The notes under the pieces are model-generated. The model ran no database searches and had not been told where the DNA came from. It worked only from the letters and a program-made list of their open reading frames with translations. 64,000 nt of DNA from a virus: the IMG/VR virus record IMGVR_UViG_3300025012_000055, positions 27,381 to 91,380 of that record; one strand, 5' to 3'. Of the stretch, positions 9,017 to 61,882 are shown in pieces (within the stretch, counting starts at the first letter, position 1; each line of letters begins with the position of its first letter). The position numbers and the translations under genes were made by a program.

Positions 9017-10195
9017 ATGAAAATAGATATAAATAAAATAAAAACAACACCACCCAATTTTGGATTTAATTTTTCTATTTTTGGAAAACCATCTGATGAA
9101 ATTAAAGAATGGTGTAAATATTGGAAGTTGGGTATGGCAGATTCTGGTCCTTATACAAATATTATTATCAATGATAATTTTGATATATCACAAGCCTTTA
9201 ATAGTCATAAAATATATGATTATATTGATGGATTTAGTCCAAATTTAAATAAACACTTACATGTTGGTCACTTATCCAATTTAGTTATTGCTAATGCTTT
9301 TCAGAAATTGGGAATTGGTAATAAATTTATTGCTATTCTTGGTGATACATTAGATGGTCAAATTAAAAAAAAGGATGCCTTAAATTCGTTTTTAAATAAT
9401 TGTAAGGATTTTGGATACAAAGTGGATGATATTTATTATGCTTCAAAAATGGAATTAGAGGATAACTCACTATTAATAGACGGTGATAATGATTATATTG
9501 GATCTAAGGTTTTCGATTTAGGTGATGAGAAGCTAGTTGGAATTAAAAATTCTGGATTCACTACATATTTCTATCAAGATGTTGCCTTGGCTAGTAAATT
9601 AAATTCATCAACTTTATATCTAACTGGATTTGAACAGGATAACCATTTTAAGAGTTTAAAAAAACTATATCCAAAAACAAGTCATATGGGTTTAGGGTTA
9701 GTTCTATTAGATGGTAAAAAAATGTCCAATAGCAAGGGTAATATCATCTACCTTAAAGATTTTATTGACAATTTAATGAATCTATTCAATAATGATATTA
9801 AGCTCGTATATAACATAATTGCTGGTCAAATTTTAAAATCGGCCCCCCCCACAAATAAATCAATAGATACAAAACTAATTGATAATCCTAAATTATCTCT
9901 TGGACTTTATTTAAGCTACACGCTGGCACATATAAAGAGTTGTGGGGTATCTACTCAAAATAATGACTCATTCTACTCAAAAGAGTTAGAATTTTATGAG
10001 TTAAAATCCAAATGTAACCTATCTCCAAATTTATTATTTAAGTCATTATCCAATCATTGTAAGTATATTAATAAATTATATGAAAGTAATTATATAAGGG
10101 GTAATGATAAAAATATTAAAATATTTTCTGACCTAATATCAGATTTAGAATTGGGAATGAGTAAACTTGGATTATTTTCAATAGATAAAGTTTAA
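9017..10195 (+). CDS. Short arginyl-tRNA synthetase-like protein
   Basis: 392 residues. Class I synthetase signatures are present: SPNLNKHLHVGH at about residues 74-85 (the ArgRS form of HIGH) and GKKMSNSKGN near residue 232 (KMSKS). The Asn-x-x-Lys before HVGH and the C-terminal DALR-like helices (LGLYLSYTLAHIKS) point to ArgRS. It is much shorter than cellular ArgRS (about 550-600): the N-terminal tRNA-binding domain is missing and the anticodon domain is reduced. Whether it charges tRNA or has another role is unknown; the phage also encodes tRNA-Arg(ACG) at 29139. Runs of nine C at about 9843 are in frame (Pro codons). Confidence 0.8.
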   Translation: MKIDINKIKTTPPNFGFNFSIFGKPSDEIKEWCKYWKLGMADSGPYTNIIINDNFDISQAFNSHKIYDYIDGFSPNLNKHLHVGHLSNLVIANAFQKLGIGNKFIAILGDTLDGQIKKKDALNSFLNNCKDFGYKVDDIYYASKMELEDNSLLIDGDNDYIGSKVFDLGDEKLVGIKNSGFTTYFYQDVALASKLNSSTLYLTGFEQDNHFKSLKKLYPKTSHMGLGLVLLDGKKMSNSKGNIIYLKDFIDNLMNLFNNDIKLVYNIIAGQILKSAPPTNKSIDTKLIDNPKLSLGLYLSYTLAHIKSCGVSTQNNDSFYSKELEFYELKSKCNLSPNLLFKSLSNHCKYINKLYESNYIRGNDKNIKIFSDLISDLELGMSKLGLFSIDKV

Positions 10196-10219: not shown

Positions 10220-11287
10220 ATGGATATTTTTCCACAAAATAGTAACTTGGAAAATTTAACCAGAGTTAAATTTGGCATTGATCCCACATTCTCCAAACTT
10301 CATTTGGGACATTTTGTTCCATTAAGAACTATTAAAAAATTACAAGAACAAGGCAAAGAAATAACAATAGTGCTTGGAACGTTTACTGCTCAAATGGGTG
10401 ATCCATCAGGTAAAGATAAAACCAGACCAATTCTTTCTGAAAAAGAAGTTAAAAATAATAGTGAACAAATATTAGAACAAATTAAATCTGTTCTTGACCC
10501 AGGATTTAAAATATTTAAAAATGTAGATTTGTTTAATTCCATGACCGTTCCTGAATTATTATTAACATTTTCTAAATTTACTATACAAAATTTATTAAGT
10601 AGGGAATCATTCCAAAAAAGAATAGAAAATAATCAAAGCATTGGACTTCATGAATTAATTGTTCCTATTTTACAAGGAAAGGATTCACTTCATTTAAAAA
10701 GTGAAATAGAGGTTGGTGGTAGTGATCAGTTATTTAATTTTCAAATTACACGTAAATTACAAGAATTAAATAATCAAATTCCTGAAGTATGTATAATGAC
10801 ACCAATTATTAATGGAATCGATGGTAAAAAAATGAGTAAAAGTTTAGGAAATTGTATTTTTTTAGATGAACCAACTAAAGATATTTTTGGTAAATGTATG
10901 AGTATTTCAGATAAAACTATGGAAGAATGGATTCCTTTATTAACAGATCTTGATAATTTACCTAAAAATCCAATGGAACGTAAAAAAACAATGGCTTTTG
11001 ATATTATTAGACAATTAAGAGGCAAAGAAGAAGCCATCTGGGCAATTAAAGATTTTGAAAAAACCATTCAAAATAGAAGTTTACCAGAAAATATAAAAAA
11101 AATCCCCATTTCTGATTTGATTTCTTGTATACAAAAAATAAAAAATTGTAGTAAAAATGAATCGAGAAGATTAATAAAATCTGGTGCTGTTAGTATTATT
11201 GATAGTGGTAAAATTGATGAAACTTTTGAATTGAAAATAGGTCAAATTCTAAAAATTGGGAAAAGAAATTTTGGTAAATTAGCTTAA
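10220..11287 (+). CDS. tyrS: Tyrosyl-tRNA synthetase
   Basis: 355 residues. Shows the TyrRS set: FGIDPTFSKLHLGH (about 18-31, HIGH-type), GTFTAQMGDPSGK, VGGSDQLFNFQ, GKKMSKSLGN (near residue 200, KMSKS) and a C-terminal S4 RNA-binding domain (NESRRLIKSGAVSI). Slightly shorter than cellular TyrRS (about 400), missing part of the N-terminus. Expected to ligate tyrosine to tRNA-Tyr in the host cytoplasm. It follows the ArgRS-like gene by 24 nt, so the two synthetases form an operon. No tRNA-Tyr gene is in this window. Confidence 0.92.
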   Translation: MDIFPQNSNLENLTRVKFGIDPTFSKLHLGHFVPLRTIKKLQEQGKEITIVLGTFTAQMGDPSGKDKTRPILSEKEVKNNSEQILEQIKSVLDPGFKIFKNVDLFNSMTVPELLLTFSKFTIQNLLSRESFQKRIENNQSIGLHELIVPILQGKDSLHLKSEIEVGGSDQLFNFQITRKLQELNNQIPEVCIMTPIINGIDGKKMSKSLGNCIFLDEPTKDIFGKCMSISDKTMEEWIPLLTDLDNLPKNPMERKKTMAFDIIRQLRGKEEAIWAIKDFEKTIQNRSLPENIKKIPISDLISCIQKIKNCSKNESRRLIKSGAVSIIDSGKIDETFELKIGQILKIGKRNFGKLA

Positions 11288-12310: not shown

Positions 12311-12682
12311 ATGAAAAAAAGAAAATATAAAATAGGAGATAAAGTTATTTTAATTGATAATCCTAGAGAGCTTGGTGAATCAAATAAATTTTACAAAGAT
12401 AAAGTATATAAAATAACAGATATTAAAATTGCCTATCAAAATAATACACAAATAATTAATTCTTTAGATAATTTAAACTGTTGTTTAGTAAATACAAGAT
12501 TTGAATATTATTATGAAAAATCATTAGATACCCTATCTACTAAAATATTTATTAGTACATCCTCAGGATATGGGGATTATAATATAATAAAAAAATTTAT
12601 TGAAAAAGAAGAAACTTTGACACATGAAGAGCTCAAACAATGTGCTTTAATTTGGGAAAAATATAATAAAAATGAAAGATAA
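12311..12682 (+). CDS. Unknown protein, KOW/SH3-like N-terminus; paralogue of 17243-17683
   Basis: 123 residues. Begins YKIGDKVILID, a beta-barrel pattern seen in KOW or SH3-like domains. The C-terminal part (FIEKEETLTHEELKQCALIWEKYNKN) is nearly the same as in the 146-residue protein at 17243-17683, so the two are paralogues. Function unknown. Its end overlaps the start of the Pnkp gene by 11 nt, suggesting coupled translation. Confidence 0.7.
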   Translation: MKKRKYKIGDKVILIDNPRELGESNKFYKDKVYKITDIKIAYQNNTQIINSLDNLNCCLVNTRFEYYYEKSLDTLSTKIFISTSSGYGDYNIIKKFIEKEETLTHEELKQCALIWEKYNKNER

Positions 12683-13580
12683 TCTAAAAGTAATCATACT
12701 AATTGGCATAAGCGGTGCCGGTAAATCAACATGGGCAAAAGATTTTATTTCCAAAAATCAAAATTATGTCAGAGTTTCCAGAGATGAATTCAGATACATG
12801 TTAAAAAACCAACAAATATGTGAAAACAAAATTGAAAATTTAATAACTGAATTATGTGAAGATGTTATAATAAAAAGTTTAATTAAAAAACAAAATGTTA
12901 TTATTGATAATACCAATCTTAAATTAAAATATATCAATAATTTTATTAAACTTGTTCAGGATTATGCAGATATTGAATATATATTATTTGATACATCAGT
13001 GGAAAAATGTATAGAAAGAGATAAAAATAGAGAAAAACAAGTGGGAGAAAAAATAATTAATAAAATGAACAATGATTTAAAAATTTTAAAAGAAAATTTT
13101 AATTTTCAATATGTTAAGAAAAATAAAACTAGAAAAATTATAAAACCTGATTTTAATTCTGAATTACCTAACGTAATTTGTTTTGATATAGATGGAACCT
13201 TAGCATTAATGGGGGATAGAAGTCCATATGATTGGGATAAAATTAGTATTGATTCTCTTAATGAAATTGTTGCTGAACAAATTGAGTTTCATAGATATAT
13301 GAAAAGAAAAATAATTATTTTATCTGGCAGAGATTCTTCTTGTAAAGAATTAACAGAAAAATGGTTAAAAACAAATGGAATTAAATATGATTATATTTTT
13401 ATGAGAAAAGAAAATGATTTTAGAAAAGACAGTATTATCAAAAAAGAATTATATGAAGAAAATATAAAAGATAAATTTAATTTATTATGTGTTTATGATG
13501 ACAGAATTTCTATAATTAAGATGTGGGCCGAATTGGGAATATTTTGTTTTAGTGTGAATCAAGATTTAAAATTTTATTAG
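12672..13580 (+). CDS. pseT: Polynucleotide 5'-kinase / 3'-phosphatase (T4 PseT-like)
   Basis: 302 residues, the same two-domain order and length as T4 Pnkp. Kinase domain: P-loop GISGAGKSTWAKDF (about 9-22), SRDEFRY and IIDNTNL. Phosphatase domain: HAD motif CFDIDGTLALMGDRSPYDW (about 171), SGRDSS (motif II) and CVYDDRISIIKMW (motif III). The enzyme heals RNA ends, putting 5'-phosphate on and removing 3'-phosphate, and in T4 it works with RNA ligase to repair tRNA cut by the host anticodon nuclease PrrC. No RNA ligase is seen in this window. It connects naturally with the tRNA operons here. Confidence 0.93.
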   Translation: MKDNLKVIILIGISGAGKSTWAKDFISKNQNYVRVSRDEFRYMLKNQQICENKIENLITELCEDVIIKSLIKKQNVIIDNTNLKLKYINNFIKLVQDYADIEYILFDTSVEKCIERDKNREKQVGEKIINKMNNDLKILKENFNFQYVKKNKTRKIIKPDFNSELPNVICFDIDGTLALMGDRSPYDWDKISIDSLNEIVAEQIEFHRYMKRKIIILSGRDSSCKELTEKWLKTNGIKYDYIFMRKENDFRKDSIIKKELYEENIKDKFNLLCVYDDRISIIKMWAELGIFCFSVNQDLKFY

Positions 13581-13590: not shown

Positions 13591-13929
13591 ATGAATAAAA
13601 AACAAATAAAAAAAATTATAGAAAAAATAAATATTGATAATTGGAATAACTGGGATTTAAAATCTGGTAAAATTTTAACTCGATTTAATCCTTTTTATTT
13701 TGATAATAATAATGTTAAAAATAGAATAGTAATCCTTACAGAATTAATAGGAAATTGGGAAAAATTATTAAATTCTAAAAAATATATAAAGGAACAATTA
13801 GAAAATTATTTAAAAGAGATTATTATAAAAAAATACTTTAAAAATAATGAAAAAATTACAATAAAATATGAACATGATATTCATTTTACGGATATAAGTA
13901 ACAACAAAGAAATAAATGAACAAGAATAA
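13591..13929 (+). CDS. Unknown small protein
   Basis: 112 residues, Lys/Asn/Ile-rich and mostly helical. No recognised motif. It ends 14 nt inside the start of the phosphoesterase gene (13916), so it sits within the Pnkp operon. Confidence 0.6.
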   Translation: MNKKQIKKIIEKINIDNWNNWDLKSGKILTRFNPFYFDNNNVKNRIVILTELIGNWEKLLNSKKYIKEQLENYLKEIIIKKYFKNNEKITIKYEHDIHFTDISNNKEINEQE

Positions 13930-14503
13930 AAAATATAATTCATCAGAAATAAATGTTTTTTTCAGCTCTGATTTTCACCACAGTCATGTAAACATAGTTA
14001 AAGGAACAACTGTTTGGCCAGATACCTCTAGTTGCAGAAATTTTAATAGTATTCAAGAAATGAACCAAACAATTATTAATGGAATAAATAATAAAGTTGG
14101 AGAAAATGATATTTTATATAATTTAGGGGATTGGTCATTTGGACATCCATCGAATATTCAATATTTCAGAAATCAAATTATCTGTAAAAATATTCATCTA
14201 ATATTGGGGAATCATGACAAATATATAAGAAAAAATAAAGATGATATTCAAAATATATTTTCTTCTGTTCAGAATTATGCAGAAATACAAATTGATAATC
14301 AAAGAATAATATTATTTCATTATCCCATTGTTAGTTGGGCAGGAATGAAAAGGGAAACAATTCACCTATTCGGACACGTTCATTCAAAATATCAAGGACA
14401 AGGAAAATCCTTGGACGTTGGAATTGATAATTATTATAAATTATTTGGTACTTATGAGCCTTTCTCATATAAAGAAATTTTAAAAATAACTGAAAATAAA
14501 TAA
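13916..14503 (+). CDS. Calcineurin-like metallophosphoesterase
   Basis: 195 residues. All the metal-binding motifs of the family appear in order: SSDFHHSH (DxH, about residue 18), NLGDWSFG (GDxxF), LGNHDK (GNHD), FHYPI (H) and LFGHVHSK (GHxH). It hydrolyses phosphoester bonds with two metal ions; the substrate could be a nucleotide, RNA end or DNA. The family has many small phage and bacterial members of unknown substrate. It is too small and unlike gp47/SbcD to be the partner of the gp46 at 22716. Part of the Pnkp operon. Confidence 0.88.
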   Translation: MNKNKKYNSSEINVFFSSDFHHSHVNIVKGTTVWPDTSSCRNFNSIQEMNQTIINGINNKVGENDILYNLGDWSFGHPSNIQYFRNQIICKNIHLILGNHDKYIRKNKDDIQNIFSSVQNYAEIQIDNQRIILFHYPIVSWAGMKRETIHLFGHVHSKYQGQGKSLDVGIDNYYKLFGTYEPFSYKEILKITENK

Positions 14504-22278: not shown

Positions 22279-22402
22279 ACGACCAGAAAAATGGGGTAGT
22301 GGATTATGGACAAAAAAACATACAATATATCTTTTATTTGGAATATTTCCAATTTGGCATGATTATTATTATTATATTAAAAAAATAAATAATAAAAAAT
22401 GA
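22271..22402 (+). CDS. Small hydrophobic protein with an apparent ATA start
   Basis: 43 residues in a frame beginning ATA at 22271, 8 nt inside the previous gene, and ending TGA within the ATG of the next gene (ATGA overlap at 22399). One membrane segment (YLLFGIFPIWHDYYYYI). The tight overlaps on both sides suggest a real gene, but no standard start codon exists. Confidence 0.4.
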   Translation: MNKRPEKWGSGLWTKKHTIYLLFGIFPIWHDYYYYIKKINNKK

Positions 22403-22683
22403 AATCAAAAGAAGATTATTTTATTGAGTTATTAAAAGTTTTAAAACCAAAAACTCTTAATGAACATCCAGATTATATATTTTATGTTTATAAAGATAAA
22501 CTTTATATTGAATATAATAAAAAAACTAACCATGCCTGGGTAGATTATAATAGAATATGGAAAATTTTTTCATCCAAATATCATTGTAATTCTCAGGAAA
22601 TCAAGAAGATAACAACTGACCTGTTGGAAGAACATTTAAAATTGAAGGGAGTAACAACTATGGGCTTTGTCCATATTTTCTGA
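22399..22683 (+). CDS. Unknown protein, paralogue of 53245-53541
   Basis: 94 residues. Shares YFIELLKVLKP, DYIFYVYKDK, YNRIWKIF and ITTDLLEEHLKLKGVTT with the minus-strand gene at 53245-53541. Function unknown. Its end contains the 63-bp repeat copy 2, after which the sequence (MGFVHIF) no longer matches the paralogue, indicating rearrangement at its 3' end. Confidence 0.65.
   Translation: MKSKEDYFIELLKVLKPKTLNEHPDYIFYVYKDKLYIEYNKKTNHAWVDYNRIWKIFSSKYHCNSQEIKKITTDLLEEHLKLKGVTTMGFVHIF
22598..22660. repeat. 63-bp exact repeat, copy 2 (with a 23-bp partial third copy at 22689-22711)
   Basis: Identical to 15163-15225. A further 23 bp of the same sequence recurs at 22689-22711. This is the native coding context, since the paralogue at 53245 has the same protein segment. 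Confidence 0.9.
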
Positions 22684-25104: not shown

Positions 25105-25515
25105 GGGGATGACAGGCATTGACGTGATCAAAGTAGTCATAAAATATGTGTTTGGCATTCTGGAAAAGACAGAAGAATCGCTTAAATGGCGAATCAAACA
25201 AAGGACTCTCAAATGAGATTGCAAGGTTCTTGGTGTCAGATGAAAATCTGATTTTCAAAAATCAAGAAATTGAATTTGAAATTGCTTAACAAGGTTAAGT
25301 CAATTATATTGGAAACAGGATAGAGTTAAACTGAATAATCGGGAACAGATTTTAACTGAACATGTTTGTATAATCCAAACAATAAAATAAATCCTGATTA
25401 GTTTAGGGTAAAAGTTTGGGAACGATTCTTTAAAAATTGAACAAAAAATAACACTAAAAAAATATTTTATGTTGAAAGATTAACGGACCCGGTTTTCGAA
25501 TTACCGGCATCTCCA
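25105..25515 (+). ncRNA. ssrA: tmRNA (transfer-messenger RNA)
   Basis: The 5' end GGGGATGACAGGCATTGACG and the 3' end with GGACCCGG, a T-loop (TTTCGAATT) and CATCTCCA are typical of tmRNA; GGGGATG and CATCTCC form a 7-bp acceptor stem. Length about 411 nt fits. CCA is not encoded. The tag frame is not certain: the best candidate ends GAA ATT GCT TAA at about 25278-25289, preceded in frame by codons for SDENLIFKNQEIEFEIA, which would be an unusual tag (normal ones end ALAA). Its job is to rescue stalled ribosomes and tag the unfinished protein. Confidence 0.85.
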
Positions 25516-25524
25516 CTTTTTAAT

Positions 25525-27083: not shown

Positions 27084-27114
27084 TTGTTTATTTTAATTAT
27101 TTTACTTACTTTTG
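27084..27114 (+). promoter_or_regulatory. Promoter of tRNA operon 1
   Basis: TTG at 27084-27086, 20-nt spacer, TACTTTTG at 27107-27114. Confidence 0.85.
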
Positions 27115-27138: not shown

Positions 27139-27210
27139 ATGAAAAACATAAATTTACATAATCTCCCACAGCTACCCAGTAATAAACATTGGGGTGGAAA
27201 ACTTATGTAA
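27139..27210 (+). CDS. Leader peptide of tRNA operon 1
   Basis: 23 codons, ATG 27139 to TAA 27208-27210. In the middle (27163-27177) it has the run CTC CCA CAG CTA CCC, that is Leu-Pro-Gln-Leu-Pro. These are the amino acids of the three tRNAs encoded downstream: Pro(TGG), Leu(TAG), Gln(TTG). Such C-rich codons are rare in this AT-rich genome. The leader starts 25 nt after the promoter, and a terminator follows 29 nt after its stop. I infer a regulatory peptide whose translation is sensed rather than a functional product. Confidence 0.75.
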   Translation: MKNINLHNLPQLPSNKHWGGKLM

Positions 27211-27248
27211 AAAAATTAAAAAAATACAATAGATTATAAACCCTGATG
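27187..27248 (+). promoter_or_regulatory. Antiterminator pairing of tRNA operon 1
   Basis: CATTGGGGT (27187-27195), inside the leader ORF, can pair over nine positions (two of them G-U) with ACCCTGATG (27240-27248), the 5' arm of the terminator. A weak upstream pairing of CCCA (27175-27178) with TGGG (27190-27193) could sequester it. The segment ends 12 nt before the stop codon, so a ribosome that finishes the leader covers it. Confidence 0.65.
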
Positions 27249-27280
27249 TTCAATAAAAAAGTCATCAGGGTTTTTTTATT
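27239..27280 (+). terminator. Intrinsic terminator of tRNA operon 1 (attenuator)
   Basis: Stem ACCCTGATG (27240-27248) with CATCAGGGT (27263-27271), followed by seven T. Located between the leader ORF and the first tRNA, so it stops the tRNA transcript unless bypassed. Confidence 0.9.
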
Positions 27281-27298
27281 GATAAAAAATTAAAATAT

Positions 27299-27366
27299 GG
27301 TGTTAGTTCAGAGGCAGAACGCTACATTTGGGATGTAGAGGTCGAGATATCATAATTCTCACACCA
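27299..27366 (+). tRNA. tRNA-Pro(TGG)
   Basis: Cloverleaf with anticodon stem CTACA/TGTAG and loop TTTGGGA (anticodon TGG). T-loop is atypical (ATCATAA) and one acceptor pair is mismatched. No CCA encoded. Confidence 0.75.
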
Positions 27367-27385
27367 TACAAAAAAATTAAAAAAT

Positions 27386-27459
27386 ATTCCAGTATCCCAA
27401 TTGGTAGAGGATATAGTATTAGAAACTATAAAGTGAGAGTTCGAATCTCTCCTGGAGTA
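27386..27459 (+). tRNA. tRNA with anticodon TAG (Leu), class I shape
   Basis: Acceptor ATTCCAG/CTGGAGT, anticodon stem ATAGT/ACTAT with loop ATTAGAA (anticodon TAG, reads CUN), T-arm GAGAG TTCGAAT CTCTC. The variable region is only five nt (AAAGT); normal tRNA-Leu has a long variable arm, so its amino-acid identity is not certain. Confidence 0.75.
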
Positions 27460-27460
27460 C

Positions 27461-27534
27461 TACCGGATCTTCTAATTTTGGCAGGAAAGCACCCTTTGAA
27501 GGTGATAATATAGGTTAGATCCCTACTCTGGTAA
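27461..27534 (+). tRNA. tRNA-Gln(TTG)
   Basis: Acceptor TACCGGA/TCTGGTA, anticodon loop CTTTGAA (anticodon TTG), T-stem with one A-C mismatch. Begins 2 nt after the previous tRNA; processing must be tight. Confidence 0.75.
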
Positions 27535-27565
27535 CTACAAAAATTAAAAAAATATTAGATAATAC

Positions 27566-28502: not shown

Positions 28503-28533
28503 TTGATTTTTTAAAATATTTTACTTATATTTG
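28503..28533 (+). promoter_or_regulatory. Promoter of tRNA operon 2
   Basis: TTG at 28503-28505 region, 20-nt spacer, TATATTTG at 28526-28533. Confidence 0.85.
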
Positions 28534-28558: not shown

Positions 28559-28639
28559 ATGAAAAACTGGTTAAACATATCAATTCATAGTAATAGTCGT
28601 AATATTATACGACCTGGAAGGGGTATGTTTATACAATAA
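28559..28639 (+). CDS. Leader peptide of tRNA operon 2
   Basis: 26 codons, ATG 28559 to TAA 28637-28639. Between 28565 and 28606 it carries Asn (AAC, AAC, AAT, AAT), Trp (TGG), Ser (TCA, AGT, AGT), Ile (ATT, ATT), His (CAT) and Arg (CGT). The seven tRNAs encoded downstream are Asn, Ser(TGA), Trp, Ser(GCT), Ile(GAT), Arg(ACG) and His, and each has at least one exactly matching codon here. The last third of the ORF holds the antiterminator segment. I infer translation of this peptide senses the supply of these tRNAs. Confidence 0.8.
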   Translation: MKNWLNISIHSNSRNIIRPGRGMFIQ

Positions 28640-28670
28640 TCATTTTTAAAAGATATATAAAAAACCCCTT
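28618..28670 (+). promoter_or_regulatory. Antiterminator pairing of tRNA operon 2
   Basis: AAGGGGT (28618-28624), within the leader ORF, is fully complementary to ACCCCTT (28664-28670), the terminator 5' arm, and identical to the terminator 3' arm. A 6-bp hairpin GTCGTA/TACGAC (28596-28613) forms just upstream. The segment ends 12 nt before the stop codon, as in operon 1. Confidence 0.7.
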
Positions 28671-28696
28671 GGATTAAGTTTTTAAGGGGTTTTTTA
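28660..28696 (+). terminator. Intrinsic terminator of tRNA operon 2 (attenuator)
   Basis: Stem AAAAACCCCTT (28660-28670) with AAGGGGTTTTT (28684-28694), followed by T. Lies five nt before the first tRNA gene. Confidence 0.9.
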
Positions 28697-28700: not shown

Positions 28701-28774
28701 TGGTCTGTAACTCAGAAGTTTAGAGTGCCAAGCCGTTAACTTGGAAGCCGGGATGGCAGAATTCCCCAGACCAG
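28701..28774 (+). tRNA. tRNA-Asn(GTT)
   Basis: Acceptor TGGTCTG/CAGACCA, D-stem ACTC/GAGT, anticodon stem CCAAG/CTTGG with loop CCGTTAA (anticodon GTT). Position 33 is C instead of the nearly universal T. Confidence 0.75.
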
Positions 28775-28790
28775 CTGGAAATATAAAAAA

Positions 28791-28874
28791 GGAAAAGGAC
28801 TGGCATGGACGAAGAGATAGTCTTGAAAACTATTGTGTGTAAAAACATCGTGAGTTCGATTCTCACCTTTTCCG
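28791..28874 (+). tRNA. tRNA-Ser(TGA)
   Basis: Acceptor GGAAAAG/CTTTTCC, anticodon stem ATAGT/ACTAT with loop CTTGAAA (anticodon TGA), long variable arm, T-arm GTGAG TTCGATT CTCAC. Confidence 0.85.
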
Positions 28875-28888
28875 CTTTTTTAAAAAAC

Positions 28889-28959
28889 AGGTTCTTGGTG
28901 TAATGGCAGCATCTGAAATTCCAAACTTCAGGGTATGGGTTCGAATCCTATAAAACTTG
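28889..28959 (+). tRNA. tRNA-Trp(CCA)
   Basis: Anticodon loop TTCCAAA (anticodon CCA), T-arm ATGGG TTCGAAT CCTAT. One A-C mismatch in the acceptor stem and one in the anticodon stem. Confidence 0.7.
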
Positions 28960-28960
28960 C

Positions 28961-29046
28961 GGAAAATAAACCAATCAGGGTATTGGGCCTATTTGCTAAA
29001 TAGTGCGTTCTGTAAAAAGAATGTGTTTCAAATACTCTGTCCTCCG
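28961..29046 (+). tRNA. tRNA-Ser(GCT)
   Basis: D-stem CCAA/TTGG, anticodon stem CCTAT/ATAGT with loop TTGCTAA (anticodon GCT), long variable arm CGTTC/GAATG. T-arm and acceptor stem are weak (several A-C mismatches), so exact ends are uncertain. Confidence 0.65.
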
Positions 29047-29056
29047 CAAAATTATA

Positions 29057-29131
29057 TTGACCAGTAGCTCAATTGGTGGAGCAACATTCTGATGAAATGA
29101 AGGTCGAAGGTTCAAATCCTTCCTGGTCAAC
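29057..29131 (+). tRNA. tRNA-Ile(GAT)
   Basis: Acceptor TTGACCA/TGGTCAA, D-arm GCTC/GAGC, anticodon loop CTGATGA (anticodon GAT), T-arm GAAGG TTCAAAT CCTTC. Confidence 0.85.
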
Positions 29132-29138
29132 AAAAAAC

Positions 29139-29213
29139 TATTTTCTTAGTTTAACTGGATAAAATATTTGGCTACGAACCAAAAGATGAGAGTTCGAATC
29201 TTTCAGAAAATAC
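29139..29213 (+). tRNA. tRNA-Arg(ACG)
   Basis: Acceptor TATTTTC/GAAAATA, anticodon stem TTTGG/CCAAA with loop CTACGAA (anticodon ACG; needs A-to-I at 34 to read CGC/CGA), T-arm GAGAG TTCGAAT CTTTC. Confidence 0.85.
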
Positions 29214-29227
29214 ATTATAATTAATAT

Positions 29228-29302
29228 GGTGCTATTGTTGTAAATTGGTGAGCATAGAAAACTGTGAATTTTCAGGTAAAGGTTCAATTCCTTTATGGCA
29301 CC
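29228..29302 (+). tRNA. tRNA-His(GTG)
   Basis: The extra G at -1 (29228) pairs with C73 (29302), as required for tRNA-His. Acceptor GTGCTAT/ATGGCAC, anticodon stem GAAAA/TTTTC with loop CTGTGAA (anticodon GTG). Confidence 0.85.
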
Positions 29303-29310
29303 CAATAATC

Positions 29311-30003
29311 TTAATTTAATAATTCAAAAACTTCTTTTATTCCTTCACTAGCTTTTTTATTAATATAAGTAATTTCCATTCCAATTTTACTTAAACTTTT
29401 AACTGGGTTTGGATCAATAAAAAATACTTCACAAGATAATTTTATATAAGTTAACATTTGAAAACAATAATGGATAAATAAAGAAGTTCCAATTATTATT
29501 AAATAATCACATTTTTCAATTGTTTTATATGATTCTTCAATATTACAAGGATATTCCCCAAACCAAACAACATGAGGTCTTAATTGTGAGCCATTTTCAC
29601 ATTTATCACCCAACTTTATATCATTATAACCACAATCATATATTAAATCTTCATCTGATGAGCTTTGAGATTTTGTAAGTTCCCCATGAATGTGAATAAC
29701 ATTTGAAGAGCCACCCCTTTCATGTAAATTATCAACATTTTGAGTTATCACGGTAACATCAAAATTATTTTCAAGTTCTGCAATTAATTTATGCGCCAGA
29801 TTTGGTTTTACATTTTCCAGTTGCCTTCTTCTTTCGTTATAAAAATCTAAAACTTTTTGTTTATCTTTGTGCCATGCACTTATTGTTGCAACATCATCTA
29901 TTTTATGGTTTAACCATAAACCATTTTTTCCTGTCCTGAATGTTGGGATGCCAGATTCCTCACTTACGCCCGCACCAGTAAAAACAACTATTTTCTTTTT
30001 CAT
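29311..30003 (-). CDS. Sir2-family NAD-dependent protein deacylase (sirtuin)
   Basis: 230 residues, close in length to bacterial CobB. Shows the family motifs: FTGAGVSEESGIPTFR (NAD binding, about 7-22), TQNVDNLHERGG (catalytic centre, about 104), HIHGEL with the catalytic His, and IIGTSL near the end. The zinc-binding cysteines are altered or missing (only scattered Cys remain), so a small zinc-free class is possible. It could remove acyl groups from host proteins using NAD, but the target is unknown. It is transcribed leftward with its stop just beyond the tRNA-His gene. Confidence 0.9.
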   Translation of the reverse strand: MKKKIVVFTGAGVSEESGIPTFRTGKNGLWLNHKIDDVATISAWHKDKQKVLDFYNERRRQLENVKPNLAHKLIAELENNFDVTVITQNVDNLHERGGSSNVIHIHGELTKSQSSSDEDLIYDCGYNDIKLGDKCENGSQLRPHVVWFGEYPCNIEESYKTIEKCDYLIIIGTSLFIHYCFQMLTYIKLSCEVFFIDPNPVKSLSKIGMEITYINKKASEGIKEVFELLN

Positions 30004-37203: not shown

Positions 37204-37214
37204 TATTTATAATA
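37204..37214 (+). promoter_or_regulatory. TATTTATAATA box
   Basis: Ends only 1 nt before the ATG at 37216, closer than a -10 promoter element should be. Confidence 0.5.
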
Positions 37215-37215
37215 A

Positions 37216-38244
37216 ATGAGTGAAACATTAACAAAAAATTATTTAAAGAAATTTTATAATTTATCAAATTATGACCTTTCAGGTGAAATTATAAAAGAAG
37301 AAAAAGAATTGCTTGAAGAGGGTTGGCTGGGAAGAATTGCTGGTCTTTTGGGTATTACCGTTGCCTCATTTAGTTCAGCACTTTCTCAAAAAGTGGATAT
37401 ACAACAATTATCAAATAAGGTTGATTATGAAACGTTAAATAAAATTGAAATGGCAATGAAAGATCCATCAGTTGAACAAAAACTCAATCAACTTGGAATT
37501 CCTGATAATAATATTCAAAGAACAATAAATAGGTTGGAAAAAACAAAAAAAGTTAGTGGGATTAAGGAAAAACAAGTTTTAAACGATGAACAATTAGTAA
37601 ATTTATTAAAACAAGGATGGAATTTAACAGGAGTACAAACTGACACAATAATTAATACCTTTCAAACAATTACTCCAGAAAGTGATATAATACAATACAC
37701 ACATACCTTAAGCGATAATGCATTTTTTGCTAGCGGGGGGCACGCATTAAATAATCAAGAAATTCAAAAATTAACAAATACCATAGATTCATTACAACAA
37801 CAGGGAAATGTTTTATTAAATATTTCAATAGAATCCTCAACTGATAAACAAGGACTTTCAATTAATCTTCAGAATAAATTAGAAGATTTGAGATATTCAA
37901 AAGATAATAATGGGTTATCCAAAATAAGAAATGATCAAATAAAACAAATATTAATTAGTAAAGGAATTGATGATAGTTTAATAGGTCAAGTAATATTATC
38001 AGAACAAGGAACACAAATAATTGATAAAAATGCAAGGTATGTTAAAATTAGATTTAATATATCTTATCTTCCAGAAACCCCCCCACCAGGACCAAAAATA
38101 GATACTACATATAAACAAACATATAATTTAATATATTTATATTCTAAACAAAAATCACCAAAATCACCAAAAATTAAAATACCTTCTTGTAAAATTAAAA
38201 TAAAATTATTTAATAAAAAATCTATTTGTCCTGCTTACCAATAG
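37216..38244 (+). CDS. Putative virion protein with OmpA-like C-terminal fold
   Basis: 342 residues. N-terminus (LKKFYNLSNYDLSGEIIKEE) resembles the putative head-targeting segments. The region around residues 170-285 (SDNAFFASGGHALNNQEI, IESSTDKQGLSINLQ, LSKIRNDQIKQILISKGI, NARYVKIRFN) follows the OmpA C-terminal (peptidoglycan-binding) pattern in strand and helix order, though without clear diaminopimelate-binding residues. The last 50 residues are basic and Pro-rich and may be unstructured. A peptidoglycan-binding or structural role is inferred. Confidence 0.6.
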   Translation: MSETLTKNYLKKFYNLSNYDLSGEIIKEEKELLEEGWLGRIAGLLGITVASFSSALSQKVDIQQLSNKVDYETLNKIEMAMKDPSVEQKLNQLGIPDNNIQRTINRLEKTKKVSGIKEKQVLNDEQLVNLLKQGWNLTGVQTDTIINTFQTITPESDIIQYTHTLSDNAFFASGGHALNNQEIQKLTNTIDSLQQQGNVLLNISIESSTDKQGLSINLQNKLEDLRYSKDNNGLSKIRNDQIKQILISKGIDDSLIGQVILSEQGTQIIDKNARYVKIRFNISYLPETPPPGPKIDTTYKQTYNLIYLYSKQKSPKSPKIKIPSCKIKIKLFNKKSICPAYQ

Positions 38245-38919: not shown

Positions 38920-40112
38920 AAAATGTTAAAAGCATATAAATATAGAATTTATCCAACAAAAGAACAAAAAATTCTGATAGAAAAACATTTTGGATGCTGC
39001 CGGCTCGTTTTTAATCTTGCATTGGAAATAAAGCAATATGCTTATAAAACACAGCATAAATATTTATCTTCTTTTGATTTATGTTATCAACTTCCTGATT
39101 TGAAAAAAGAATTCACATGGATTAATGAAATTGATAGTCAGGCATTACAGTCAAGCATTAAAAAACTTGATATCGCCTTTAAGAATTTTTTAAAACACGG
39201 AGCAGGCTTTCCAAAGTATAAATCAAAGGACAATAAACAAAGTTTTCAATGCCCCAATAATACACGCAGGATAAACTGGAAGGAAAATACTTTGGATTTG
39301 CCTAAAATAAAAGGGATTCCTATTGTATTATCAAGAACATTTAAGGGAAAAATAAAAACAATTACTATAAGCCGGACACCAACATATAAGTATTTTGCTT
39401 CCATTTTGGTAGATACAAATATTGTTATTCCAGAGAAACCACAAATAACAGAAAACAAAACATTAGGTATTGATTTAGGTTTGAAAGATTTTGCAATATT
39501 GAGCAATGGGGAGAAATTTGCTAACCCTAAATTTTTGAAAAACAATATTGAACGATTAAAAGTTTTACAAAGAAGAGCAAGCAAGAAAATGAAGGGAAGT
39601 CAAAACAAGAAGAAAGCAAATTTAAGAGTTGCTATTAAACATGAAAATATAAAAAATAAACGGGATGACTTTCTGCACAAATTGTCTTCACGACTAATCT
39701 GCGAGAGCCAAGCAGATACATTTGTGTTTGAAAATTTGTCATCTCAAAATATGATGGCTAATCATAATCTGGCACAAGCAATCAGCGATGTGAGTTGGGC
39801 CAAACTCGTTGAGATGATGAAATATAAAGGGGAATGGTATGGAAAAAATATTTTATTCATTGACCGATTTGCGCCAAGCAGCAAGACTTGTTCTAATTGC
39901 AATTTTGTTAATGATAAATTAACATTATCAGATAGAGATTGGCAATGTATTGTATGTGGCGTAACCCATGACCGGGACATCAATGCAGCAAAAAATATAA
40001 AGTTCATGGGATTAAAGAAAGTAAAGATATGGGATTAAAAAAAGCAGGGATGCGGATGCCCGAAGTGCCTGTGGAGTTGCCAACATTGGCTGGAACTATG
40101 AAGCAGGAAATT
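38920..40112 (+). mobile_element. TnpB-only element (IS200/IS605 family), approximate bounds
   Basis: Contains an intact-looking TnpB and no TnpA. Ends were not mapped by repeats; bounds are set by where flanking phage coding sequence stops and resumes. Confidence 0.65.
38923..40038 (+). CDS. tnpB: TnpB (IS200/IS605 OrfB), RNA-guided nuclease type
   Basis: 371 residues. RuvC-like residues present: Asp-184 in LGIDLGLKDF, Glu-270 in FVFENLSS, Asp-352 in THDRDINAAKN. Zinc ribbon CSNCNF (323) and CIVCG (342). N-terminal MLKAYKYRIYPTKEQKILIEKHFG is the normal TnpB start. TnpB uses an RNA from the element's 3' end to guide DNA cutting and keep the element in place. A 23-bp tandem duplication (ATGGGATTAAA at 40006 and 40029) shifts the frame near the C-terminus; the usual last part (GMRMPEVPVELPTLAG) is in the next frame. 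Confidence 0.9.
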   Translation: MLKAYKYRIYPTKEQKILIEKHFGCCRLVFNLALEIKQYAYKTQHKYLSSFDLCYQLPDLKKEFTWINEIDSQALQSSIKKLDIAFKNFLKHGAGFPKYKSKDNKQSFQCPNNTRRINWKENTLDLPKIKGIPIVLSRTFKGKIKTITISRTPTYKYFASILVDTNIVIPEKPQITENKTLGIDLGLKDFAILSNGEKFANPKFLKNNIERLKVLQRRASKKMKGSQNKKKANLRVAIKHENIKNKRDDFLHKLSSRLICESQADTFVFENLSSQNMMANHNLAQAISDVSWAKLVEMMKYKGEWYGKNILFIDRFAPSSKTCSNCNFVNDKLTLSDRDWQCIVCGVTHDRDINAAKNIKFMGLKKVKIWD

Positions 40113-41421: not shown

Positions 41422-44370
41422 GTGGGTAGGACATCAAAAGAAAATAGAATTGTTGAATTTGCAAAATGTATAAAAGACCCATCATATTATGCTGAAACTT
41501 TTTGTCAGACATTTGATATGACAAAAGATAAAAATGTCCCATTTAAAATGTTTAGAAGACAAAGGGAATTAGTACAAAATTGTATTAATAATAGATATAA
41601 TATTATTAAAAAACCAAGGCAAGCTGGGGTTACAACATCCATTTCTTTATTTGCTGCATGTTATATGATGTTTCAAGAGAAAAGAAAAGTTATGATTGTT
41701 GCCAACAAACAGGACATGGCATTTGAAATGTTAAAAAAAATAAAAGAATTCATACATTTTGCTCCTAGTTGGATGGGAATTAATTTAACAAGAATTGCTC
41801 AGGGTATATTAGAATTAAATAATGGTAGTCTTGTTAAGGCATTTGCAACTTCAGAAGATGCTTTGAGGGGATTTACTCCAACTTTACTAATTATTGATGA
41901 GGCAAGTAATATTAGAGATGGTGCTGAATTTTGGGGTGCTGCACACCCTTCACTTGCAAGCGGGGGGAAATGTATTATATGCAGTACTCCAAGGGGAATG
42001 GACGAATTTTATTGGGCAATATATGATGCAGCTTTAAATAATAAAAGTAATTTTTATATAAATGAATTTAAGTGGTATGAAGATCCAAGATATAATGATA
42101 AATTAAAATGGACAAAGGGTGATTTAATTATTGATACGTGGTTAAAAACAAAAGTAAAAGATGAAGATTACGAAGTATTTGAAAGATTAGAAGAAAAAGG
42201 ATTTGAGCCAACTTCTCCCTGGTTTGAAGATCAATGCAGGGAATTAAATTATGATAAAAGACGAATTTCACAAGAATTGTTGGGAAAATTTATTGGTTCT
42301 GGCGATAATGTTATTGATGAAAAAGATATTAATTTTCAAGAAAAAGAAAATGTAATGCCACCGATAAGAAGTGAGGGATTTGATGGAAATGTATGGATTT
42401 GGAAAGATCCAATTCCAGATCATCAGTATATTTTGGGATGCTTACCACCTGGAGAAAAAGTATTGACAAACGAAGGATTAAAAAATATAGAGGATATAAA
42501 AATTGATAATTTACTTATAGATGAAAATGGAAATTTTACTAAAATAAAAAATATTCAAACAACAAAAAATATAAATGATGAATTATATGAATTTAAATTA
42601 AGTAATGTTTGTAGAAAAACAATTTTTACTAGAAATCATCCAATATTATCAAGTATAAATACCGAACTAAAAAGAAATTGGAAAAGGAAGCATCCAGAAC
42701 ATAAATTTGGAAAACGATATTGGGATTTTAATTTCAATTTTATTAATTCAGAAAATTTAAAAATTAATGATTGGATCAAATATCCTAATTTATATTATAA
42801 TAAGGATTTAACTGATAATGAAATATTATCAAAATGGGATAAATATAAAAATATTGGTAGAACTGATTTTAAAATTAAAAACCCATTATTAGAAAAAGAC
42901 TTTTGGTGGTATGTTGGGATATGGTTGGCCGAGGGGTGGTATTTAAAATCTAAAGCAGTTGAAAAAAGTAAAGGTTTATCAACTTGTCATAATATAAATG
43001 AAAAAATATTTGCATATAAAATAAAATTTTTGTGTGAAAAAATATTTAATAGAAAAGTAAATATAAGAGATAGAGAATCTGTAGTATATACACAATTTAA
43101 CTCATTACAATTATATAGTTTTTTTCTTGATAATTTTAGTGAATACGCCCATAATAAAAAATTACCTGAATGGGTAAAATATTTACCTAAAAAATATAAA
43201 ATAGAAATTTTAAAAGGATATTTTGATGGTGATGGGTGTTGGTCAAAAACATATAAAAACAATAAAGGTTTTTCTTTTATAGCATTTGTCAGTGTTTCTT
43301 TAGAATTATTAGAGGGAATTCAAGATCTATTATTTTCATTAGGAATTATTTCCGCATTAAAAATATTGAGAAAGGGGGGGTTTTGTATTATTGAAAATAG
43401 AAAATTTAAAACTAAAATAACATACGACTTAACTTTAGCACATTATGATAGTTTACAATTAGTTAATATGTTTAATATTAAAAAATATAATCATGTAAAT
43501 ATTAATGATTTTGAAATTAGAAATGAAAGAATTATTTCTGGTACTTTAATCAGTAAAGATAATAAATGGATTTATCACAAAATAAAAGAAATAAATAAAA
43601 TACCTTATAATGGAGATGTTTATAATTTTGAAACAGAATCTCACACTTTTTTATGTAAAAATATAACAACACATAATTGTGATGTATCAAGGGGTGATAG
43701 TAGTGATTTTAGTACAATTTGTATAATAGATTTACATGCTGGAGAACAGGTAGTGGAATATCAGGGAAAAATAACACCTGATTTTTTTGGGGAACTTATA
43801 TATGATTATGCAAATAAGTATCAAGCATATACAATAATTGATGTAACTGGTGGAATGGGGGTTGCCCCAATTCTAAAATTAATAGATATGGGATTTGATA
43901 AAAAATTACTTCATTATGATAATCCCAAATCCAGATTAATACAAGAAAAGTTGGGCAGATTTAAAAAAGGAGATAAATTACCAGGATTTAATATAGGAGC
44001 AAATAGAAATATGACCATAATGGAATTTGAAAGACAAGTTAGAATGGGTGAGATAAAAATTAGATCAAAAAGATTAATAAATGAAATGAAAACTTTTATT
44101 TGGAAAAATGTTGGACCAAATGTCAGCAGACCAGATCATATTTCTGGAAAAAATGATGACCTTATTTGGAGTATATCAATGCCACTTTTTATTTCTCAAA
44201 CAACATTTAAAAATCTTAAAAGATATAATGAACAAACAAAAGCAATGTTGAGTAGCATGACATCTGATTCAAATCAATATAAGGATACAATAACACCACA
44301 AACAGGATATATGGGGAGAAATGATACAAAATGGGCATATCAAGAATATGGGTGGTTATTTAAAAAATAA
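41422..44370 (+). CDS. terL: Large terminase subunit with intein (T4 gp17-like)
   Basis: 982 residues from a GTG start; 569 after removing the intein. ATPase: KKPRQAGVTTSISLFA (Walker A, about 70), Walker B LLIIDEASNI (about 156), motif III CSTPRGMDEF. Nuclease: DVSRGDSSDF (753 on, first Asp), TIIDVTGGMG (second acidic site), SGKNDDLIWS (third). The intein (residues 340-752) sits directly before the DVSRG motif. The protein cuts the phage concatemer and drives DNA into the prohead through the portal. Confidence 0.95.
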   Translation: MGRTSKENRIVEFAKCIKDPSYYAETFCQTFDMTKDKNVPFKMFRRQRELVQNCINNRYNIIKKPRQAGVTTSISLFAACYMMFQEKRKVMIVANKQDMAFEMLKKIKEFIHFAPSWMGINLTRIAQGILELNNGSLVKAFATSEDALRGFTPTLLIIDEASNIRDGAEFWGAAHPSLASGGKCIICSTPRGMDEFYWAIYDAALNNKSNFYINEFKWYEDPRYNDKLKWTKGDLIIDTWLKTKVKDEDYEVFERLEEKGFEPTSPWFEDQCRELNYDKRRISQELLGKFIGSGDNVIDEKDINFQEKENVMPPIRSEGFDGNVWIWKDPIPDHQYILGCLPPGEKVLTNEGLKNIEDIKIDNLLIDENGNFTKIKNIQTTKNINDELYEFKLSNVCRKTIFTRNHPILSSINTELKRNWKRKHPEHKFGKRYWDFNFNFINSENLKINDWIKYPNLYYNKDLTDNEILSKWDKYKNIGRTDFKIKNPLLEKDFWWYVGIWLAEGWYLKSKAVEKSKGLSTCHNINEKIFAYKIKFLCEKIFNRKVNIRDRESVVYTQFNSLQLYSFFLDNFSEYAHNKKLPEWVKYLPKKYKIEILKGYFDGDGCWSKTYKNNKGFSFIAFVSVSLELLEGIQDLLFSLGIISALKILRKGGFCIIENRKFKTKITYDLTLAHYDSLQLVNMFNIKKYNHVNINDFEIRNERIISGTLISKDNKWIYHKIKEINKIPYNGDVYNFETESHTFLCKNITTHNCDVSRGDSSDFSTICIIDLHAGEQVVEYQGKITPDFFGELIYDYANKYQAYTIIDVTGGMGVAPILKLIDMGFDKKLLHYDNPKSRLIQEKLGRFKKGDKLPGFNIGANRNMTIMEFERQVRMGEIKIRSKRLINEMKTFIWKNVGPNVSRPDHISGKNDDLIWSISMPLFISQTTFKNLKRYNEQTKAMLSSMTSDSNQYKDTITPQTGYMGRNDTKWAYQEYGWLFKK
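42439..43677 (+). other. Intein in terminase, LAGLIDADG endonuclease type
   Basis: 413 residues. Cys-1 (CLPPGEKVLTNEG), block B with TRNHPILS, DOD endonuclease motifs VGIWLAEGWY and LKGYFDGDGCW, and the C-terminal splice block YNFETESHTFLCKN ending in THN, followed by Cys+1. All splicing residues are in place, so it should be active. Confidence 0.92.
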
Positions 44371-49399: not shown

Positions 49400-50705
49400 T
49401 TTATTTTCCATAAAGTCAAACTTTTCAATGTATCAGCATATTTATATATGTCTATGAGACAAAAATATTATGCAACTTGTTGAACAACATTTAATCAAAA
49501 ATACATCAGAATCATTTAAGGAATGTGAAGATGTTTGTTTTAAAACAAAAAACTTATACAATTATTCTTTATATCTAATCAGATAAGCATATATTAAAGA
49601 AAATAAAAATATTATTTTTGATTTATATCATCATATAAAGAAACATGAATCTTATAGCGCCTTACCAAGGAAAGTTTCATCCAATGTTTTGTTAATGGTA
49701 CAGAAGAATTTTAAATCATTTTTCAAAGCATTAACATTATATCAAAAAAACCCAAATAAATTTAAAGGAAGACCTGGTTTACCAAAATATTTGGATAAAC
49801 AAAAGGGAAGATACATTGCTTGGTTTACAAATCAAGCCGTATCAAAAAAAGTATTTAAAAAAACAGGAAAAATTAAACTTTCACAATGTAATATAGAATT
49901 TAAAACAAAATTAAAATCTTTTGAGGAAATTGATTGTGTCAGAATTGTCCCAAAAAATAATCACCATGTAATTGAGGTGGTTTATACAATAGTAACACCA
50001 GAAAAATTAACGGATAATAACAAATATGCAGCAATTGATTTGGGTGTGAATAATTTAGCAACGATTGTATCAAATGTTAAAAAATTTAAACCATTAATTA
50101 TAAATGGAAAACCATTAAAATCCATTAATCAGTTTTACAATAAAAAGAAAGCACATTTGCAATCTGTTAATGAAATAAGACATAAAATAAAAACAAGCAG
50201 ACAAGTACAGAAACTTGATTTAAAAAGACAAAATAAAATCAATCATTATCTTCATGTTTCCAGCAAATTAATTGTTAACATTCTCAAAGAAAATAATATT
50301 AATACTTTGATTATAGGGAAAAATGATAATTGGAAACAAGAGGTGAATATTGGAACAAAAAATAATCAGAATTTTGTCAGCATACCACACAGTAGATTTA
50401 TAAATTTTATCAATTATAAATGCGAAAAAGAAGGTATAAATGTTATAACTAAAAATGAAAATTATACATCTAAATGTTCCTTTTTGGATTTGGAAACGAT
50501 CCGAAAGCATAAAATGTATAAAGGAAAAAGAATCAAAAGGGGTTTATTTATTTCTTCAGAAGGAAGAAAAATAAATGCTGATGTGAATGGTAGTTATAAT
50601 ATGTTAATAAAAGTAATTCCAAACGTCTTTGACAATGGAATAGAGGGTGTCGGAATTCATCCAAGGGTCATAAAAATCCTGAAGTGAAAAATATTTATAT
50701 ATTTT
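49400..50705 (+). mobile_element. TnpB-type element, degenerate; approximate bounds
   Basis: Contains the nonsense-mutated TnpB at 49470-50687. Ends not resolved; the bounds are taken from where the flanking minus-strand phage frames stop. Confidence 0.5.
49470..50687 (+). pseudogene. TnpB-like gene with an in-frame TAA
   Basis: From ATG 49470 (MQLVEQHLIKNTSE) the frame has TAA at 49584-49586 and then continues without a break to 50687. The context (YSLYLIR, stop, AYIKEN) suggests CAA-to-TAA change. The remaining part (332 residues from the Met at 49689) holds AAIDLGVNNLATIV (RuvC Asp), IIGKNDNWKQEVNIG, NYTSKCSFLD, GKRIKRGLF and NADVNGSYN. It belongs to the same subgroup as the gene at 61903, with GKN replacing the usual Glu motif. 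Confidence 0.8.
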
Positions 50706-61532: not shown

Positions 61533-61563
61533 TTGACTTTTTAGAATATTTTATTTATCTTTG
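61533..61563 (+). promoter_or_regulatory. Promoter of tRNA operon 3
   Basis: TTGACTTT at 61533, 20-nt spacer from TTG, TATCTTTG at 61556-61563. Confidence 0.85.
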
Positions 61564-61579: not shown

Positions 61580-61660
61580 ATGAAACAGATAACGACATAT
61601 TTTGGTGGAAATGGTGATGGCACAACTGATGCGATAACCATAATGGCCAGATTATGTTAA
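61580..61660 (+). CDS. Leader peptide of tRNA operon 3
   Basis: 26 codons, ATG 61580 to TAA 61658-61660. Contains Phe (TTT), Gly (GGT, GGA, GGT, GGC), Asp (GAT, GAT) and Ala (GCG, GCC), matching all four downstream tRNAs: Asp(GTC), Phe(GAA), Gly(TCC), Ala(TGC). It also has five Thr codons with no tRNA-Thr downstream in the present sequence. Stop-to-terminator distance and layout copy those of operons 1 and 2. Confidence 0.75.
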   Translation: MKQITTYFGGNGDGTTDAITIMARLC

Positions 61661-61695
61661 AAATATAAATAACAACTATATAAAAACCCTGGCTA
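61644..61695 (+). promoter_or_regulatory. Antiterminator pairing of tRNA operon 3
   Basis: TGGCCAG (61644-61650) can pair with CTGGCTA (61689-61695) over seven positions (one G-U), removing part of the terminator's 5' arm. A hairpin CATAAT/ATTATG (61639-61656) presents GGCCAG in its loop. It ends 7 nt before the stop codon. Confidence 0.65.
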
Positions 61696-61717
61696 ATAAA
61701 AAGTCAGGGTTTTTTTG
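61682..61717 (+). terminator. Intrinsic terminator of tRNA operon 3 (attenuator)
   Basis: Stem AAAAACCCTG (61682-61691) with CAGGGTTTTT (61705-61714) followed by T; 15 nt before the first tRNA. Confidence 0.9.
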
Positions 61718-61731: not shown

Positions 61732-61808
61732 GGTGATACAGCATATTGGTGCATGTTGCTTCCCTGTCACGGAAGAGATTGTCGGTTCAAATCCGTCTAT
61801 CACCGCCA
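61732..61808 (+). tRNA. tRNA-Asp(GTC)
   Basis: Acceptor GGTGATA/TATCACC, anticodon stem CTTCC/GGAAG with loop CTGTCAC (anticodon GTC), T-loop TTCAAAT. G73 followed by an encoded CCA (61806-61808). Confidence 0.85.
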
Positions 61809-61809
61809 A

Positions 61810-61882
61810 GGAACTTTGGTGTAGGTGGTCTGCACAACTGTTTGAAGCACAGTGGGTCTTTGTTCGATTCAAAGAGGTTCCA
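61810..61882 (+). tRNA. tRNA-Phe(GAA)
   Basis: Acceptor GGAACTT/AGGTTCC, anticodon stem ACTGT/ACAGT with loop TTGAAGC (anticodon GAA), T-arm CTTTG TTCGATT CAAAG. Confidence 0.85.

Follow-up and report, generated by a model that had tools for sequence, protein, structure and literature searches.

The window analysed here, a stretch of 64,000 nucleotides, carries 12 tRNAs in three operons and belongs to a large phage of the Bacteroidota type. Judged from its sequence, each tRNA operon is very probably controlled by transcription attenuation of the ribosome-mediated trp/his type, in which it is the tRNA genes that are regulated. The original prediction had spoken in passing of attenuated tRNAs. 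That claim now stands far more firmly than it was stated, on the anatomy of the operons, the match between leader codons and tRNAs, the pairing of the antiterminator arm, the position of the control codons and the recurrence of the arrangement in related phages, where leaders covary with tRNA content.

Organization of the tRNA operons

The order of parts is the same in all three operons: a Bacteroidota -7 box, a leader open reading frame (ORF) of 23–26 residues, an intrinsic terminator and then the tRNAs. The antiterminator arm, or region 2, is situated near the end of each leader ORF. The parts are located as follows:

27107–27114, plus strand: operon 1 -7 box TACTTTTG, Bacteroidota type TAnnTTTG
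27139–27210, plus strand: operon 1 leader ORF MKNINLHNLPQLPSNKHWGGKLM and stop; control codons CTC CCA CAG CTA CCC at 27163–27177
27186–27196, plus strand: operon 1 antiterminator arm (region 2), pairing with 27239–27248
27238–27273, plus strand: operon 1 intrinsic terminator
27297–27535, plus strand: operon 1 tRNAs, Pro(TGG) 27297–27368, Leu(TAG) 27386–27460, Gln(TTG) 27461–27535
28526–28533, plus strand: operon 2 -7 box TATATTTG
28559–28639, plus strand: operon 2 leader ORF MKNWLNISIHSNSRNIIRPGRGMFIQ and stop
28612–28625, plus strand: operon 2 antiterminator arm, pairing with 28663–28673
28661–28693, plus strand: operon 2 intrinsic terminator
28701–29303, plus strand: operon 2 tRNAs, Asn(GTT), Ser(TGA), Trp(CCA), Ile(GAT), Arg(ACG), His(GTG)
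61556–61563, plus strand: operon 3 -7 box TATCTTTG
61580–61660, plus strand: operon 3 leader ORF MKQITTYFGGNGDGTTDAITIMARLC and stop
61644–61651, plus strand: operon 3 antiterminator arm, pairing with 61688–61694
61683–61713, plus strand: operon 3 intrinsic terminator
61732–61883, plus strand: operon 3 tRNA-Asp(GTC) and tRNA-Phe(GAA)
63252–63327, plus strand: tRNA-Gly(TCC), probably of operon 3, past the TnpB insertion at 61903–63132

The TnpB (OrfB_IS605) gene between tRNA-Phe and tRNA-Gly is on the minus strand (61903–63132) and, from the sequence, has apparently been inserted into operon 3; further TnpB genes are found at 38923–40038 and 49689–50687. Near 63337–63410 a sequence resembling tRNA-Ala(TGC), in which G3 and U70 may pair, was read by eye; neither ARAGORN nor Rfam recognises it. 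A minus-strand tRNA-Ile called by ARAGORN at 37205–37295 was discarded as probably false. Operon 2 is directly followed, on the opposite strand, by the gene of a Sir2-family protein (29311–30003). Elsewhere in the window, the large terminase (41422–44370) carries an intein with a LAGLIDADG-like domain.

Leader codons and tRNA content

In operon 1 the leader sequence LPQLP (Leu-Pro-Gln-Leu-Pro) precedes Pro, Leu and Gln tRNAs, and all five control codons are CTN, CCN or CAR, which comprise 8.5% of the phage's codons. The leader of operon 2 contains ISIHSNSRNIIR, with the run Ile-Ser-Ile-His-Ser-Asn-Ser-Arg-Asn-Ile-Ile-Arg, ahead of Asn, Ser, Trp, Ile, Arg and His tRNAs. In operon 3, which has Asp, Phe and Gly tRNAs, the run is Phe-Gly-Gly-Asn-Gly-Asp-Gly-Thr-Thr-Asp-Ala.

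The match was evaluated in control zones, defined as the codons 10–37 nt upstream of the antiterminator arm. Here, 6 of 9 residues are cognate in operon 1 (NLHNLPQLP, p 6e-4), all 9 of 9 in operon 2 (ISIHSNSRN, p 2e-5) and 6 of 10 in operon 3 (GNGDGTTDAI, p 5e-3, counting the Ala tRNA that is unrecognised by both programs). Operon 3 taken alone is weak, with p 0.013 when Asp, Phe and Gly are counted and p 0.29 with Asp and Phe only. The Fisher combined value for the three control zones is 2e-8, or 7e-7 when operon 3 is counted with Asp and Phe only. Over their whole length, the leaders of operons 1 and 3 show only modest enrichment.

The window leaders were also folded with the RNA masked up to a stalled ribosome. 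Pairing between region 2 and the 5' arm of the terminator (2:3 pairing) was obtained for stalls at or before the control codons, and was absent without a ribosome or with the ribosome further on. A protector hairpin (1:2) is predicted in all three window leaders; in relatives, the pairing of regions 1 and 2 is weak (mean z -0.82).

Probable attenuators in related phages

Phages with a related major capsid protein, on contigs that reach 365 kb, have up to 53 tRNAs. Related phages together yielded 85 non-redundant elements, of which about 11 are without the antiterminator pairing and are probably false calls. Leader ORFs were selected by length and position only and composition was never used. 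The tRNA regions have the same architecture as in the window, with four recurring leaders: Pro/His/Gln operons stand behind MKNLVNIQPQPQQHPQ..., Asp/Glu/Val/Leu/Ala/Trp operons behind MKNLLDILMVALEAVLLWAADED..., Tyr/Lys operons behind MRTFGTYYYGKKSYKK... and Cys/Ile/Asn/Ser/Phe/Thr/Gly/Arg operons behind MKTTVSSRTISISTSISRNGNSIFCSNF....

Leaders track operon content where the tRNAs are divided among operons in another way. In relative G011, a Thr/Arg/Ile operon has the leader ...IITITQITRIRGTKTSS..., while in G049 a single 17-tRNA operon has a leader that covers 13 of its 14 amino acids. In G051, the leader of operon A covers 14 of 14 amino acids of the operon and is without Pro, Gln and Tyr; in the leader of the second operon, Asn, Leu, Pro and Gln are abundant. 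As a separate observation, the grouping of tRNAs into operons in relatives such as L092, L095, L101 and L125 loosely tracks the first letter of the codon, with Pro/His/Gln (C), Asp/Glu/Val/Ala (G), Ile/Asn/Thr/Ser/Arg-AGR (A) and Tyr/Lys separate.

Across 62 elements, 43% of leader residues are cognate to the tRNA set of their own operon and 21% to the sets of other operons. For this comparison, the observed value of 0.220 (null sd 0.020) stands against a maximum of 0.092 in 100,000 permutations. The match is specific to the reading frame, being 0.43 in the coding frame, 0.17 in each of the other two frames and 0.21 in antisense (p ~1e-10). The result was replicated on held-out contigs that were found via their RNA ligase, where 20 elements gave 0.376 versus 0.215 and none of 100,000 permutations was as high. 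Among 19 leader clusters that are dissimilar at 45% identity, the own-set match was again reached by 0 of 100,000 permutations, which answers the objection of common descent. As single linkage at this identity merged many unlike short leaders, the 19 representatives constitute a conservative test.

Further support came from the RNA structure. Pairing of the antiterminator arm with the 5' arm of the terminator has a mean z of -3.05, with p<=0.05 in 49 of 64 cases, whereas 144 other strong terminators from the same phages gave a mean z of -0.03; several of the strongest of these controls look like additional tRNA-operon attenuators that were missed by the strict filter. Exact upstream complements match 12 different terminator-arm sequences, so the pairing has been maintained through changes on both sides.

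Cognate codons make up 71–76% of codons at -36 to -10 nt from region 2, 27% at -9 to -1 and 21% at the start of region 2, with the leader stop codon a median of 14 nt after it. This peak 10–36 nt before the arm, with a fall to background over the last 9 nt and within the arm, is as expected if a stalled ribosome has to leave the arm free. A -7 box is present upstream of 49 of the 62 leaders, compared with 5.8 expected. The elements contain four features of a trp-type attenuator: leader codons related to the regulated genes, an intrinsic terminator, a competing antiterminator arm and control codons placed where a stalled ribosome would free that arm.

The Asp/Glu/Val/Leu/Ala/Trp leader is present in 16 viral contigs and, by the search used, was confirmed in no genome among 84,980 species of bacteria and archaea. 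A leader similarity search gave no match in 50,697 named phages, where the short, filtered query makes for a weak test, and a direct scan of two named relatives (LR756508 and Flavobacterium phage immuto_2-6A) showed no convincing element.

Pnkp, the synthetases and the probable tmRNA

The original prediction placed the tRNA operons in a set with a polynucleotide 5'-kinase/3'-phosphatase (Pnkp), two aminoacyl-tRNA synthetases and a tmRNA:

9017–10195, plus strand: divergent ArgRS-like class I synthetase (Pfam match, HVGH and KMSNSKG motifs)
10220–11287, plus strand: tyrosyl-tRNA synthetase, TyrRS (tyrS equivalog)
12672–13580, plus strand: T4-type Pnkp (profile, PHROG and structure matches)
25105–25518, plus strand: probable tmRNA, sub-threshold, with the frame end ...FKNQEIEFEIA and stop

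The three proteins were correctly recognised. The Pnkp ORF spans exactly 12672–13580 and encodes 302 residues, comprising an N-terminal P-loop kinase and a C-terminal HAD phosphatase that can be aligned to solved Pnkps, as is characteristic of the T4-type enzyme. The domain profiles HAD_PNKP (E 1e-41) and AAA_33 (the kinase domain) are both matched, as are phrog_505 polynucleotide kinase (E 9e-83) and the structures 4xrp (E 9e-57) and T4 1ltq (E 4e-35); the motifs GISGAGKS (P-loop), RDEFR and DIDGT are present. TyrRS scores 259.6 bits against a tyrS equivalog cut-off of 113.8. The ArgRS-like protein (392 residues) passes the Pfam tRNA-synt_1d cut-off (26 versus 23.3 bits) but reaches only 36 of the 261.65 bits required for the NCBIfam argS equivalog. 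It is labelled ArgRS-like but divergent because the HVGH and KMSNSKG motifs are present while the argS score is far below the cut-off.

Neither the synthetases nor Pnkp stand behind an attenuator; ahead of the ArgRS-like and TyrRS genes none was seen and the promoter runs straight into the gene. Two genes past Pnkp is a calcineurin-like phosphoesterase (phrog_547, 13916–14503), which is possibly another RNA end-processing enzyme.

The tmRNA is less clear-cut. The sequence at 25105–25518 scores 17.7 bits (E 0.0042) against an Rfam RF00023 gathering score of 47, and ARAGORN makes no tmRNA call there. However, among 37 records of related phages, 11 contain a tmRNA above the Rfam cut-off; the window sequence can be aligned with these over its full length and its frame terminates at the same stop (...EIEFEIA versus ...VELEIAA). 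From this alignment the locus is probably a tmRNA. The tmRNAs of relatives (L100, L101, L125 and others) encode long tags of 28–32 residues, for example, AEDIMSIPTSLTRGKSVFARNTELAFAA.

The RNA ligase and the linkage of the two halves

The Pnkp-Rnl1 repair pathway requires an RNA ligase. None was found in the window's own record of 91,380 bases, and the search succeeded instead on contig G002, which is 100% identical to window positions 22631–64000 and extends past the right end of the window. The ligase (371 residues; L088:11042–12157, minus strand) lies 7.7–8.8 kb past the window, exceeds the PF09511 cut-off (E 6e-19), matches structures of T4 RNA ligase 1 (E 9e-11) and contains the KxDGS motif with the nucleotidyl lysine (KxDG). 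By sequence it is of the T4 Rnl1 type.

Left of window position 22450, contig G002 differs in sequence and has the same tetranucleotide profile. The join lies within 22300–22560, where a paralogous ORF connects the shared right part to the different left sequence, and may represent a misassembly or a strain rearrangement. As the two contigs disagree to the left of this point, only the window's contig links the tRNA half to Pnkp and the synthetases.

In relatives, an Rnl1-type ligase is found in 19 of 37, mostly inside the tRNA region, and Pnkp in 5 of 37. One relative, G021, has Pnkp, two ligases and tRNA operons together.

A model for the switch

From these features we infer that termination in cells is controlled by ribosome stalling. 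Transcription would start at the host-type promoter and RNA polymerase would make the short leader ORF. When charged tRNAs for the leader codons are plentiful, the ribosome would continue to the stop codon, which lies just beyond region 2, and would cover this region; the terminator would then form and prevent synthesis of the tRNAs. When any one of these tRNAs is short, the ribosome would stall on the control codons 10–36 nt before region 2, leaving this region available for pairing with the terminator's 5' arm, and the polymerase would read into the tRNA genes. Without translation, the upstream hairpin of the leader would hold region 2 and termination would be the default.

The leader may therefore be regarded as a summary of its operon, through which each tRNA class could be replenished on demand, for example, following tRNA loss caused by host nucleases or host shut-off. 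Repair of cut tRNAs would fall to Pnkp and the Rnl1 ligase encoded nearby, and removal of stalled ribosomes to the tmRNA. More broadly, it is likely that tRNA supply is demand-driven in a widespread group of large phages, with one to four or more attenuated operons, each with a leader that is a readout of the operon's amino acids. Shortage would be sensed across almost the whole genetic code and answered by phage tRNAs, RNA repair enzymes and tmRNA. It would be the first case of tRNA genes controlled by leader-peptide attenuation, and also the first in which phage tRNAs respond to tRNA loss in a regulated way.

Alternative explanations

Two other readings concern the mechanism. The terminators could be plain punctuation between upstream genes and the tRNAs, with the short ORFs arising by chance, as such ORFs are abundant in AT-rich genomes and the whole leaders of operons 1 and 3 are only modestly enriched. 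This is highly improbable, being contradicted by the frame-specific codon match, its replication on held-out contigs, the positional profile, an antiterminator pairing that is absent from the 144 control terminators and a promoter motif of its own before the leader. Still less credible is control of the operons by a T-box or another RNA that binds uncharged tRNA directly. T-boxes likewise sense tRNA charging and use terminators; here, however, the match is found in the translated codons of a single reading frame rather than in a specifier loop. A permissive Rfam scan of the window (E up to 5) gave no match to a T-box or other known amino-acid leader RNA.

The remaining readings accept attenuation and concern its purpose. 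The original prediction saw the set as a layered response to host defences that attack tRNAs. Its parts are real, an Rnl1 ligase was found nearby and the operons have the anatomy of a shortage switch, whereas the sequence does not show a nuclease to be the cause and the set is not a fixed module. As relatives keep Pnkp in 5 of 37, tmRNA in 11 of 37 and Rnl1 in 19 of 37 cases, it is instead a loose assortment. One dedicated anti-defence module of Pnkp, synthetases, tmRNA and attenuated tRNAs is unlikely: the parts co-occur on this contig, with Rnl1 on the overlapping one, and G021 combines Pnkp, two ligases and tRNA operons, but the parts are scattered over ~60 kb, Pnkp and the synthetases are without attenuators and on the part of the contig with the alternative join, and relatives keep different subsets. 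The set may nevertheless serve an anti-nuclease purpose. Host anticodon nucleases are a good candidate for the cause of shortage, given that RNA ligase, Pnkp and tmRNA occur together in these phages and that phage tRNAs are known to counteract nucleases of this kind (PMC10264068, PMC11555353); codon demand and host tRNA decay are equally compatible. That the switch is real and serves to match tRNA supply to codon demand as host tRNAs decay, and not as a defence response, is a serious possibility that falls slightly short of even. An attenuator is indifferent to how tRNAs become scarce, the operons cover nearly all amino acids, a wider range than any single anticodon nuclease is known to attack, and Pnkp is infrequent in relatives. 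On the other hand, the frequency of the Rnl1-type ligase, mostly within the tRNA region, and the published cases of phage tRNAs offsetting tRNA-cutting defences fit a defence role.

Relation to known systems

For decades, opinion has been divided over why phages have tRNAs, with codon supplementation on one side and resistance to tRNA-cutting defences on the other. A tRNA switch triggered by shortage makes this question directly testable, by asking which leader is switched by which infection or defence. It would also extend classical attenuation to the control of tRNA genes, and the leaders would be ready-made, amino-acid-specific reporters of tRNA shortage.

Classical ribosome-mediated attenuators control the amino-acid operons trp, his, thr, ilv and leu, as well as pheST. 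The elements described here resemble them in having a promoter, a leader ORF with control codons, an antiterminator arm that competes with an intrinsic terminator, and control codons placed about one ribosome footprint upstream of the arm. They differ in acting on tRNA genes of a phage and in having leaders that serve 2 to 14 amino acids and reflect the set of tRNAs in the operon. T-box riboswitches raise expression via an antiterminator when charged tRNA is short. This response is shared, but there is no T-box match here and translation of the leader is the apparent sensor. Similarly, Pnkp and an Rnl1 with KxDGS are the same two enzymes as in T4 tRNA repair, although here they accompany tRNA operons that are themselves switched.

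Leader-peptide attenuators before tRNA operons are what seems to be new, as no description of them was found in the open-access literature and the switch does not appear to have been described before. In jumbo phages, tRNAs are already known together with Rnl1/Rnl2 ligases and PNK-HAD enzymes (PMC7824862), so that the RNA repair sets and tRNA arrays are alike; the word stem "attenuat" and tmRNA are absent from that overview and the novelty lies in how the tRNAs are regulated. Finally, in the systems where phage tRNAs offset tRNA-cutting defences (PMC10264068, PMC11555353), they constitute, as here, a supply against tRNA loss. There, the phage provides resistant variants or a supply of the depleted tRNAs, whereas here the supply itself looks to be switched by shortage.
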